Source: Steroidobacteraceae bacterium (GTDB lineage Bacteria > Pseudomonadota > Gammaproteobacteria > Steroidobacterales > Steroidobacteraceae). Taken from it: a stretch of DNA of 64,000 nt. The notes below the pieces were generated by a model. The model did not search any database. It worked only from the letters and a program-made list of their open reading frames with translations, and was not told the DNA's origin. Location: assembly GCA_025458905.1 (NCBI GenBank), contig JALORN010000002.1, forward strand, positions 1 through 64,000. The letters run 5' to 3'. The position numbers were made by a program, and so were the translations under genes. This document shows, in pieces, positions 57,555 through 61,598 of this stretch. Each line of letters begins with the position of its first letter. The first letter of the stretch is position 1.

Positions 57555-58519
57555 AGCGGCGCGAGGTCGTCGCCGGGCTCGCGGGCGCGGCCTCGATCGC
57601 CGGCATCGCCGCCGGTGCCGGGCCGCCCGCGGCCGGTGCCGTCGGCGGCAGCCCGGGTGGGAGTGCCGGGCCGGGCGCAGGCGCGGGCGACGCGGCGGGC
57701 CTGCCGGCCGCGCCTCCCGCGCCGGGCCGCCCCCCGAAGCGCTTCGATGCGCGCGGCTGCGTCGCGCTCGTCACTGGCGCGAACCGCGGCGTCGGCCTCG
57801 GCTTCGTCGAGGTGTTGCTGGCACGCGGCGCGAAGCGCGTCTATGCCACCGGCCGCAACCCGCGCAACCTGCCGCAGGTCGTCGCGCTCGACCCGCAGCG
57901 CGTCGTGCCGCTGACGCTCGACGTCACCGACGAGGCGCAGCGCCGCGCGGCGGCCGCCGCCGCGCCGGACGTGACGCTGCTCATCAACAACGCCGCCTAT
58001 CCCGGCAGCGAGGTCGCCGCGGAGCGTCGGATGCTGTCGGCTGCGAGCCTCGACGACGCCCGGCGCGTGATGGACACGAACTGCTGGTCGCCCGCCGAGC
58101 TCGCGCGCCTGTTCGTGCCGCTGATCGTGCGCAACGGCGGCGGCGCGGTGGTCAACATCCTCTCGGTGGGCGCCTATTTCTGCCTGCCGGAGTTCTCGAG
58201 CTACTCGATCTCCAAGGCCGCGGCCGCGATCATGACCGCGGGGCTGCGCGCCGAGACCGACCGCCAACCCGTGCTCGTCTCGCAGGTCGTCACCGGCAGC
58301 GTGCTGACGCGCGCCTCGCCGGTCGGCACCCGGAACGGCGTCACGCCGGTGCAGCACGCCGAGGAAGTGCTCGACGCCCTCGCGCAGGGTGAGACCGAGA
58401 TCCTCGCCGCGGGCTCCCGGGGCTTCTTCGAGCGGCTGCGCGCCGACCCGAAGGCGTTCGAGCGCGGCGTGATCGATCGCTTCTTCAGCAATCCGGTGAG
58501 GATCGCGCCCTACGGCTGA
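57551..58519 (+). CDS. Short-chain dehydrogenase with Tat-like signal
   Basis: A 322-residue classical SDR. The nucleotide motif TGANRGVGLGF lies at about residues 76-86, LLINNAAY near 145, the catalytic Ser in NILSVGAY, and the active-site YSISKA (Tyr/Lys) near 218. The first 60 residues read KRREVVAGLAGAASIAGIAAG and a Gly/Pro/Ala linker, which looks like a Tat signal with a tether, so export with bound cofactor is predicted. The GTG start is set by the overlap with the oxidase stop. Its 3' end overlaps the convergent kinase gene by 10 bp. Confidence 0.85.
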   Translation: MKRREVVAGLAGAASIAGIAAGAGPPAAGAVGGSPGGSAGPGAGAGDAAGLPAAPPAPGRPPKRFDARGCVALVTGANRGVGLGFVEVLLARGAKRVYATGRNPRNLPQVVALDPQRVVPLTLDVTDEAQRRAAAAAAPDVTLLINNAAYPGSEVAAERRMLSAASLDDARRVMDTNCWSPAELARLFVPLIVRNGGGAVVNILSVGAYFCLPEFSSYSISKAAAAIMTAGLRAETDRQPVLVSQVVTGSVLTRASPVGTRNGVTPVQHAEEVLDALAQGETEILAAGSRGFFERLRADPKAFERGVIDRFFSNPVRIAPYG

Positions 58520-60063
58520 GGCCGGGCCGCGGCGTCGCGGCCGGCCGCGACGGGCGGGACACGGCAGGTCACGCGCGTGCCGCGCGGCGCGCGGGCTTCC
58601 ACCTGCAGCGTGCCGCCGGCGCGGGCCGCGCGATACTGCATGGTGCGCAGGCCGAGGCCCGGCCGCGCCGTCGCCACGTCGAAGCTCGCGCCGTCGTCCT
58701 GCACCACGAGCTGCAGTCCCGTGGCCGCATCCCCCTGCAGCTCGATCGCGATGCGCTGCGCCCGCGCGTGCCTGAGTGCATTGGCGAGCGCCTCCTGTGC
58801 GATCCGGTAGACGTCGCGCCCGCGGCTCGCCGGCACGGGCAGCCGCGTCGGGGCATCGATCCGGATCTCGACGCCGGTGCTCGCCGGGATGCGGTCGGCC
58901 AGCCGGCGCAGCGCCGCCGCCAGGTCGCCGTCGTCCTCGATGTCGGGCGAGAAGCCGTCGGCCAGCGCGAGCGACGCCTCGATCGCACGCCCGCAGGCCG
59001 CCGACATCTGGCGGGCATCCTCGAGCAGCCCGGGGGCCTCCTGCGCGGTCCGCGCCTCCAGGTGCGCCAGCTGACCGGACAGCACCTCGAGGTCGCGATG
59101 CACGGATTCGCGCACGTCCCGACCGATGCGTTCCTGCTCGCGGATCTCGGCGTCCAGGAGGCCGACGCGATGGCTCGCCTCGGCGAGGCGCTGCCGCTGC
59201 CGCAGCGCGTCCCTCTCGGCCAGCAACGCCCGCAGGGTCAGGTTGACGGCCGTCAGCACCAGGCAGAACGCCCAGAGCCGGAGCGTGTCCGTGACACTGA
59301 TGCCGGCCGGCGCCGCGGAGCCGAGCATCGCCATCGCGGTCGTCAGCAGCAGCACGAGCAGCGAGGCGAACGCGAGGTCCATGCGCAGCGCGGCGACGGC
59401 GGTCAGCGGCACGGCCAGCAGCGTCGTCCAGCTGGAGTCCGGCAGCCGCGCGGCGAGCAGCGCGACCCAGGCGGCGGTGGCCGCCAGCAGCGCGGCAGTC
59501 GGGCGCCAATCGCGCACCCAGGCGCGCAGCGTGTCGGGGCCCGCCGCGAGGAACCCCGGCACCACGGCGAGTGAGGCGATCGACGCCGACATCCACCAGC
59601 GGACGAAGTAGTAGCCCGGCTCCGCGATGGCGGGCGCATAGCCTTGCGCGATCGCACCGAGCAGCGCCACGGCACCGGGCGCCGCCATCGCCAGCGTGGT
59701 CGCGGTCGCGAGCCGCGCGAAGCCGTCGCGGCGCGCGAAGTCGCGCCCCACGCCGAGCGCGCGCGCGGCCGCGGCCAGCGCCAGCGCGGCGGACGCCGCG
59801 CCGGCGAGCCCGAAGCCGAGGATCAGCGGCGGACGTCCCACCGCGAGGCCGGCGACGGCCGCGCCGAGCAGGGCACAGCCCGCGCCCCGCCAGCCCCAGC
59901 GCAGCATCGCGGCGGCGGTCACCCCGCCGGGCAGCCAGCCGAGCGGCGAGTTCACCTGCACCCCGAGCAGCAGCACACCGAGCAGCACGCTGGCCGCGCC
60001 GAACGCGGCGGCGGGCAGCACGGGCGTCGTGCCGGGCGTACTGCCGCGCACGGTCGTCGTCAT
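58510..60063 (-). CDS. MASE1-type sensor kinase lacking the phospho-acceptor His
   Basis: A 517-residue NarL-type (HisKA_3) kinase. The first 280 residues hold about eight membrane helices with the MASE1-like WLPGGVTAAAMLRWGW start. In the dimerisation helix the motif is ERIGRDVRESVHRDL: Arg318 replaces the His that HisKA_3 kinases phosphorylate (normally DLHD/DVHD). The ATPase domain looks intact: the N-box Asn is in EALANALRHA (near 428), G1 in VQDDGASFD, and G2 in GLGLRTM. The ATG overlaps the stop of the upstream kinase (ATGA). It may act as kinase for its partner. No response regulator is adjacent. Confidence 0.87.
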   Translation of the reverse strand: MTTTVRGSTPGTTPVLPAAAFGAASVLLGVLLLGVQVNSPLGWLPGGVTAAAMLRWGWRGAGCALLGAAVAGLAVGRPPLILGFGLAGAASAALALAAAARALGVGRDFARRDGFARLATATTLAMAAPGAVALLGAIAQGYAPAIAEPGYYFVRWWMSASIASLAVVPGFLAAGPDTLRAWVRDWRPTAALLAATAAWVALLAARLPDSSWTTLLAVPLTAVAALRMDLAFASLLVLLLTTAMAMLGSAAPAGISVTDTLRLWAFCLVLTAVNLTLRALLAERDALRQRQRLAEASHRVGLLDAEIREQERIGRDVRESVHRDLEVLSGQLAHLEARTAQEAPGLLEDARQMSAACGRAIEASLALADGFSPDIEDDGDLAAALRRLADRIPASTGVEIRIDAPTRLPVPASRGRDVYRIAQEALANALRHARAQRIAIELQGDAATGLQLVVQDDGASFDVATARPGLGLRTMQYRAARAGGTLQVEARAPRGTRVTCRVPPVAAGRDAAARPQP

Positions 60064-61598
60064 GGCGCGGCTGCGGCTGCGGCGGGGGTGGGCGCGGGCA
60101 CGGCGCCGATCGGCAGCTCGCAGGCCACGTGCATACCGCCCTCCACGCTCTGCCCGAACGCCATGCGGCCGCCGCCCACTTCGGCGCGATACAGCATGGT
60201 CCGCTGCCAAGGGTCCGGCCCCGCGGCGCCCTCGCCACCGGCCGGGGCACGGCCGTCGCTGGTCAGGTCGAGACGCACCCAGCCCGGTTGCCGGGCAGCG
60301 CCGATCACGATCCCGATGCGTGTCGCCCCGAGACGCTGCCGCGCGCGGCTGAAGGCCTCCTCGGCGATCCGGAACAGGTTGGCGCAGGTGTCCGCGGGCA
60401 GGCCGGGCGCGCGCGTCGCATCGACCGTCAGCGTCACCGACTCCAGCGGCGGGCCCGCCAGGCGCTCGAGCGCCCGGACCAGCTCGCGCAGGTCGGTGAC
60501 GTCCTCCAGCAGCCCGCGGGCCAGGCCGCGCACGGCCTGCGCCACGCGGTCGCAGCCGAGGCGTGCGTCGCGGGCGAGCGCGGCGAGCGCGGGCTGCTGC
60601 GCGCCGGCGCGCGTCTCGAACGCCCGCGCCAGCAGCGACAACGCGGCGAGCTCCTGGCCGAGGGTGTCGTGCACGTCGCGCCCGATGCGCTGCTGCTCGC
60701 TCGACGCGGCCTCGAGCAAGGCCAGGCGATGGCGCAAGGTGGCGGCCTGCAGCGCGTCCTCGGCGCGCTGGCGCGCGCCGAGCAGCGCGTGCACCAGCAG
60801 CACCGTAGCGGCGAGGGTCAGCCCGTAGCTCCAGCTCGGACCATCGTCCGCCACGTTGATGGTGATCGCCGTCACGATCGCGAGCCCGAACAGCGAGGTG
60901 AACGCGAGGTCCATGCGCATCCCCGCGTACAGCACCGCGATCAGGCCCAGTGGCCCGACCCAGGGCACCGTCGCGGCGCGCGGCAGCAACAGCGTCGCCG
61001 CCACGAGGCCGAGCAGCACGCCCAGCAGCGTCGCGACGGCGCGCCCCTCGCGGCACCAGCCGCGCAGCCGCTCGCCGGTGAGCGTCGCGACCGCGGGCAC
61101 CAGCAGCAGGGTCACGATGCTCGCGTGCGCCCACCAGTGCACCCACTGCGACGCAGGCCGCCAGGGGCCGCTGGTCCACTCCAGCACCTGCAGCGCGCCG
61201 AGCACCAGCGCCGGGGGCAACGCCATCGCCGTCACGGTCGCGAGGCCGAAGCGCAGCGCAGCGCCGCGGGCATCGAGGCGCAGCGGAGCGCCGTCGCGTC
61301 GCGCCAGCCATGCGGCGAGCGCCAGCGGTCCCGAGACCCCCGTGAGGGCAGCGAGCAGCGCGGGCAGCGGCGCATTGCCCATCGCGAGCGCGGCCGACAG
61401 CGCACCGGCGAACACCAGCGCGCCCCGTCGCACGCCCCAGCGGACCAGCAATCCCGCGACCACGCCGACGGGCACCCAGCTCGCGATCGAGCGCAGCTCG
61501 GCGATGCGCAACAGCTCGGGAATCGCGAACACCCCGACGCCGGCCAGGGCGGCTGCCACAGATCGGCCCAGACTCCGCGAGGCGAAACGCATTGCCAT
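60060..61598 (-). CDS. MASE1-type sensor kinase with degenerate ATPase domain
   Basis: A 512-residue HisKA_3-type protein with an N-terminal multi-helix MASE1-like sensor (SWVPVGVVAGLLVRWGVRRG). The H-box is canonical: QQRIGRDVHDTLGQELAAL with His310. The ATPase domain is degraded: the N-box reads EEAFSRARQRLGATRI (Arg418 where Asn is needed), G1 TSDGRAP lacks the first Asp and second Gly, and the G2 box is replaced by DPWQRTM. It therefore should accept phosphate but not bind ATP. ATG 61598 is chosen; a second Met two codons later is possible. Translationally coupled to the reciprocal partner downstream. Confidence 0.87.
   Translation of the reverse strand: MAMRFASRSLGRSVAAALAGVGVFAIPELLRIAELRSIASWVPVGVVAGLLVRWGVRRGALVFAGALSAALAMGNAPLPALLAALTGVSGPLALAAWLARRDGAPLRLDARGAALRFGLATVTAMALPPALVLGALQVLEWTSGPWRPASQWVHWWAHASIVTLLLVPAVATLTGERLRGWCREGRAVATLLGVLLGLVAATLLLPRAATVPWVGPLGLIAVLYAGMRMDLAFTSLFGLAIVTAITINVADDGPSWSYGLTLAATVLLVHALLGARQRAEDALQAATLRHRLALLEAASSEQQRIGRDVHDTLGQELAALSLLARAFETRAGAQQPALAALARDARLGCDRVAQAVRGLARGLLEDVTDLRELVRALERLAGPPLESVTLTVDATRAPGLPADTCANLFRIAEEAFSRARQRLGATRIGIVIGAARQPGWVRLDLTSDGRAPAGGEGAAGPDPWQRTMLYRAEVGGGRMAFGQSVEGGMHVACELPIGAVPAPTPAAAAAAP

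Follow-up and report, generated by a model that had tools for sequence, protein, structure and literature searches.

Two adjacent genes of a Steroidobacteraceae contig were found to encode HisKA_3-type sensor kinases with complementary defects, the phospho-acceptor His being kept in one protein (P0001) and most of the ATP site in the other (P0002). The genes were analysed in a stretch of 64,000 nucleotides, which as a whole is called the window. The complementary defects given in the preliminary description were confirmed with small corrections. Its proposal of an obligate heterodimer in which P0002 would phosphorylate P0001 is, judged from the sequences, placed by us about midway between improbable and probable.

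Gene arrangement and membrane regions

Both reading frames were as first described in coordinates, strand and overlap (ATGA), with P0001 (512 aa) followed by P0002 (517 aa) on the minus strand. The features, in window positions, are as follows.

60060..61598, minus strand: P0001, MASE1-like membrane region, HisKA_3 DHp (H310-D311...Q315 intact) and CA whose ATP site is destroyed; putative acceptor subunit
58510..60063, minus strand: P0002, MASE1-like membrane region, DHp with R318 for His, and CA whose ATP site is almost intact; putative donor subunit
60060..60063, minus strand: ATGA overlap, start of P0002 over stop of P0001
60669..60671, minus strand: His310 codon of P0001 (CAC)
59110..59112, minus strand: Arg318 codon of P0002 (CGC), at the His position

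From the ATGA overlap, we infer translational coupling of the two genes. Their GC3 values were 0.92 and 0.94 and their base pattern was like that of the neighbouring genes, which, as named from the translations, are a sulfatase-like frame upstream and a convergent short-chain-dehydrogenase-like frame downstream. None of the 63 receiver-domain matches of the genome was located on the window's contig (144,714 bases).

Both membrane sensors had been called MASE1-like, for which the support from Pfam was weak: the MASE1 score of P0002 (21.7 bits) was below the cut-off of 29.8, and P0001 gave no MASE1 match up to E = 1. P0001 is called MASE1-like only because it is 32% identical to P0002 over its residues 34-496 and has eight hydrophobic segments in the N-terminal region by a simple scan, which found seven in P0002. 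Both regions are accordingly described as MASE1-like at most.

Motif and domain analysis

In P0001, the acceptor His was kept as claimed (H310 in RDVHDTLG), together with D311 and Q315, and the ATP site was ruined as claimed, the N-box Asn being replaced by R418, the G1 Asp by S447, the second G1 Gly by A451 and the G2 glycines by D462 and W464, with one G1 glycine (G449) kept. P0002 had R318 at the His position of RDVRESVH, again as described, together with E319 and with R323 for Gln, and it kept N428, H432, D456, G458, G469 and G471 (GLGL present). The N and G2 boxes of P0002 were intact as stated, but G1 was not fully so, its second Gly being S460.

Alignment to the HisKA_3 and HATPase_c profiles, the check suggested at the outset, placed one domain in each protein. 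HisKA_3 (PF07730), the DHp with the phospho-acceptor His, was matched by P0001 at 32 bits (cut-off, 24), and no HATPase match with its N, G1 and G2 boxes was obtained for P0001 up to E = 1. Conversely, HATPase_c (PF02518) was matched by P0002 at 40.8 bits (cut-off, 26.4) despite Ser460 in G1, and no HisKA_3 match with its acceptor His was obtained for P0002 up to E = 1. In whole-genome Pfam scans the two domains were divided between the proteins in the same way. By sequence, the acceptor His and the ATP site reside on different proteins, as in a split kinase.

A sequencing artefact was rejected, because several residues of one site are lost in each protein and a single sequencing error would be insufficient. 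If each of two duplicates misses one site, a reciprocal outcome has about an even chance by our reasoning, and the pattern alone is therefore not strong statistics.

Structure matches and models

Sequence matches in the PDB (E up to 1) were complementary, since DesK was matched over its DHp side by P0001 and over its CA side by P0002. The five matches of P0001 were all to DesK and within residues 276-376 (best E, 7e-4). The ten matches of P0002, all within residues 410-503, included DesK at 422-503 (E, 0.002) and other CA domains such as that of VraS.

AlphaFold single-chain models had mean pLDDT values of 71.6 (P0001) and 69.7 (P0002) and pTM values of 0.46 and 0.42, and in both proteins the membrane part was weak and most of the CA part was good. 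The degenerate CA of P0001 showed block pLDDT values of 89-95 at residues 401-500, except for 71 at 451-460, in a model built, like that of P0002, on an alignment containing many intact kinases. With Foldseek, both models matched DesK and other kinases. The CA of VraS was fitted on P0002 with a TM score of 0.84 on the target and an rmsd of 2.2, and the remaining listed fits had rmsd values between about 7 and 30 angstrom, which makes the domain placement in the models uninformative.

Search for a second copy and phylogenetic analysis

No orthologous pair was found by single-protein searches in 148 relatives, 396 genomes of the order and 369 genomes of the class, or by profile search in 217 family and 229 class genomes, these sets overlapping and including the window's own genome. 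The same was true of genome_contigs (two peptide patterns only), viral_contigs and plasmids (P0001 as query). Thresholds were strict (1e-20 to 1e-50), and in the order, class and profile searches at most 3 to 5 candidates per genome were scored. Among the 148 relatives, four other genomes were matched, over the C-terminal kinase part only. The pair with its residue losses was thus not seen as a conserved gene pair in the searched genomes.

A tree was constructed by a quick method, with SH-aLRT as the only support, from 92 of the 129 classified rows (see below), rows from genome_contigs being thinned to one in three. P0001 and P0002 formed a sister pair (SH-aLRT, 92) apart from both groups of fused kinases, although none of the starred sets of the tree contained the pair; judged from this tree they are sister paralogues. 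Their branch lengths were 1.61 (P0001, flagged as a long branch) and 0.91 (P0002), compared with a median of 0.48.

Two other origins were considered and set aside. Fission of a fused double kinase is less likely, as the two proteins group together with the above support, have no PAS and stand apart from the fused groups. A foreign or mis-binned contig was rejected on the composition of the window, which resembled that of the assembly's other contigs (r, 0.976-0.992), a weak argument because the G+C-rich relative L142 also scores 0.989.

Separate MASE1 kinases in tandem were also observed in genome G165 (L148:2524-5883), 53% identical mutually and both intact. This tandem was rejected as the same case, both kinases being intact and 23-25% identical to P0002; it may be a pair of this type at an early stage.

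Fused double kinases of the family

MASE1 and profile searches in the family yielded 11 fused genes from eight genomes of two genera, each with two MASE1-PAS-kinase units in one open frame; the MASE1-PAS-kinase profile included eight of the fused units themselves. Ten of the genes had 1224-1437 codons (L194 begins at a contig end), and the eleventh (L161/L191) is cut at a contig end. Pfam found HisKA_3 and HATPase_c once each in L139, L140, L142, L143, L190, L192, L193 and L194, HATPase_c twice in L189, and neither in L146.

In 9 of the 11 genes, His and Asn were both present in one unit and both absent from its partner, the dead unit being the first in L139, L140, L142, L189 and L190 and the second in L143, L192, L193 and L194. 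The order of intact and dead units thus differs between lineages. In L161/L191 the first unit is dead and the gene is cut before the second kinase. Both units of L146 are dead: in L146:2820-6491, Asn or Arg stands for His in the halves, the first half has no CA and the CA of the second is dead. L146 might serve purely as a sensor, or the gene might be in decay.

In the tree, the intact units (nine; support, 83) and the dead units (11; support, 92) formed neighbouring groups (94). For four pairs of fused genes, NG86 dN/dS was 0.17-0.36 in intact units and 0.22-0.39 in dead units, with dS up to 1.1, strong codon bias and three of the four pairs among L192, L193 and L194; YN00 gave dN/dS of 0.09-0.14 in three of eight cases. 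These values suggest that the dead units are kept by selection. The fused genes support the idea that tandems of unequal kinases work as a design in this family, the reciprocal kind not included; reciprocal loss was found in none of the nine intact/dead genes and was seen only in P0001/P0002.

Distribution of HisKA_3 modules

A profile was made from 11 modules, namely P0001, P0002, L153 and both units of each of four fused genes (eight in all), and searched against loci L001-L208. The 173 hits were reduced to 132 by dropping identical or overlapping copies, and, with three incomplete, 129 were classified by two positions, the His and the N-box Asn. Both residues were present in 113 of the 129 modules (55 from genome_contigs, and 49 single and nine fused modules from the window's own or related genomes). 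Neither was present in 11, all in fused genes, with L161, whose contig stops inside the gene, scored as single by the script. The His alone was kept in four, P0001 among them, and a fifth such protein, L078, was below the cut of that count. Asn without His was found once, in P0002. This sample leans towards profile-like modules, and the counts are not population rates.

The window genome contained 14 modules, eight with both residues, five with His only (P0001, L073, L075, L077 and L078) and one with Asn only. The acceptor His is likewise kept and the ATP site degenerate in L073 (contig C78), L075 (C87), L077 (C65) and L078 (C105), and no second HisKA_3-type module was found near these four in the surrounding stretches of 11-13 kb. 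In a Pfam check by comparison of positions, four of 13 HisKA_3 places had no same-strand HATPase_c beside them and one had a match below the cut-off. The surroundings of the assembly's 53 HATPase_c matches (10 read, 43 scanned) contained, by profile, no other His-less HisKA_3-type module, and a simple pattern detected no HisKA-like box in 7 of the 43 scanned loci. The assembly has a completeness of 85.8%. Its 13 HisKA_3 places compare with 0-2 in 23 genus relatives, and its genome size of 4.3 Mb with 1.4-3.6 Mb in the same relatives.

Interpretation of the kinase pair

As the best explanation, the full-length sister membrane proteins P0001 and P0002 would together constitute a split sensor kinase of HisKA_3 type, P0001 supplying the phospho-acceptor and the phosphatase motif and P0002 the ATP site. 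The heterodimer would form through the DHp helices of both proteins, the CA of P0002 would phosphorylate His310 of P0001 in trans, and P0001 would hand the phosphate to a response regulator whose gene lies elsewhere and would also dephosphorylate that regulator. Neither homodimer would be active as a kinase by itself, and output would require both membrane sensors.

Counted for this heterodimer were the Pfam split, the sets of kept and lost motifs and the complementary PDB matches, as well as the sister relation, the modelled CA folds and the gene-like base pattern. The recurrence of unequal tandems with a conserved dead unit was also counted for it, as was the phosphotransfer complex of DesK, for which excerpts of PMC5231405 describe contact between the CA of one protomer and the DHp helix of its partner. 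That geometry allows the phosphorylation in trans that had been named as possible in HisKA_3 dimers, but the loop rule for cis or trans may not apply to all HisKA_3 kinases, NarQ and NarX being given as possible exceptions in excerpts of a review (PMC8199190). Counted against the heterodimer were the failure to find an orthologue in the searched genomes, the long branches, which also fit relaxed constraint, the absence of reciprocal loss from the nine fused tandems, S460 in P0002, and a contig on which no receiver domain lies. An obligate heterodimer, as first proposed, therefore fits the complementary defects, the overlap and the sister relation, but the fused relatives are without reciprocal loss; the interpretation is plausible, partly supported and unproven.

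If true, a natural reciprocal pair would allow phosphorylation in trans to be tested directly in HisKA_3 kinases, would constitute a molecular AND gate that joins two signals, and would show by example how a symmetric dimer, once duplicated, becomes an obligate heterodimer. A broader scenario, in which a duplicated membrane kinase naturally evolved into an obligate heterodimer of full-length sisters passing phosphate only when both sensors meet, in a family that repeatedly builds unequal tandems and in a genome where a number of His-only kinases would rely on the ATP sites of other proteins, is considered doubtful.

Chance loss of one site from each copy of a duplicated orphan pair under weak constraint, leaving no working kinase, is regarded as unlikely. 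It would agree with the long branches and with the failure to find an orthologue in the genomes searched, with the fused relative L146, neither half of which retains the His or a usable ATP site, with the degenerate ATP sites of other HisKA_3 proteins of the window genome and with the contig free of receiver domains. Against such decay, frames of 512 and 517 codons are both open, with the ATGA overlap and a gene-like base pattern, one motif set per protein is nearly whole and the other lost at several residues, and the CA folds persist in the models.

We find it rather improbable that the pair is a regulatory module without autokinase activity, in which P0001 would act as a phosphatase or phosphate carrier tuned by nucleotide binding to P0002, like histidine pseudokinases. 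P0001 keeps the HisKA_3 phosphatase motif (D311...Q315), and the phosphorylatable His is reported in excerpts of PMC5231405 to be nonessential for NarX-mediated dephosphorylation. Histidine pseudokinases, among them DivL and a ChrS variant, have also been described (excerpts of PMC9491836). However, His310 of P0001 and most catalytic-site residues of P0002 are kept, and these would be needless for a mere scaffold.

P0002 might also serve as ATP donor not to P0001 alone but to several of the five His-only HisKA_3 proteins of the genome; by profile, no other HisKA_3-type module in the reverse state was found around the 53 HATPase_c matches. Such sharing is very improbable, since L073, L075, L077 and L078 are all on other contigs and do not have the membrane region of P0002 (in the MASE1 search, C28 and C84 are the only places listed for the window genome), in the tree three of the four form long branches without a placement and the fourth is absent, and other donors may be missing from the incomplete assembly.

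Comparison with known systems

Histidine kinases are described as homodimers with both sites on each chain. In Mycobacterium tuberculosis, the ATP domain and the acceptor His are carried by two adjacent gene products, Rv0600c/Rv0601c, which differ from P0001/P0002 in belonging to another kinase class and in being cut into domain pieces.

The concept of a split kinase is already known, and a reciprocal pair of full-length sisters would be a variant of it. Split kinases are described for CheA3/CheA4 of Rhodobacter sphaeroides, and 711 of 42417 HisKA proteins were counted as possible split bifunctional kinases (excerpts of PMC3591291). In CheA3/CheA4, according to the same excerpts, ATP use and phosphate acceptance are likewise on two proteins and the acceptor is also a phosphatase, but whole domains are missing and the kinase is one of chemotaxis (PMC3591291); P0001 and P0002, in contrast, are full-length membrane sisters of HisKA_3 type in which single sites are destroyed. 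Hik36-Hik43 of Synechocystis is also called a split histidine kinase, and its parts interact in two-hybrid tests, but it is a CheA homologue split over two genes and not two sister sensors (excerpts of PMC7656254). In ChrS/HrrS of Corynebacterium glutamicum, related kinases heterodimerise and one can be catalytically dead; a difference is that excerpts of PMC9491836 describe the ChrS pseudokinase as a frameshift product of laboratory evolution without significant heterodimerisation, with HrrS a working kinase.

It had been stated that no MASE1 pair of this kind was described. A pair of full-length sister kinases with reciprocal losses was indeed not seen among the open-licence papers listed for split, degenerate, heterodimeric, MASE1 and double kinases, but the idea of a split kinase is not new in kind, as excerpts of PMC3591291 attest. 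A likeness within the family is given by the fused MASE1-PAS-HisKA_3 double kinases, which also have two functionally unequal MASE1 kinases in tandem; they differ in being one polypeptide with PAS, in pairing, in 9 of 11 genes, an intact unit with one that is doubly dead, and in their separate place in the tree. These intact-plus-dead kinases would represent a second, conserved route to unequal dimers, for study alongside P0001/P0002.
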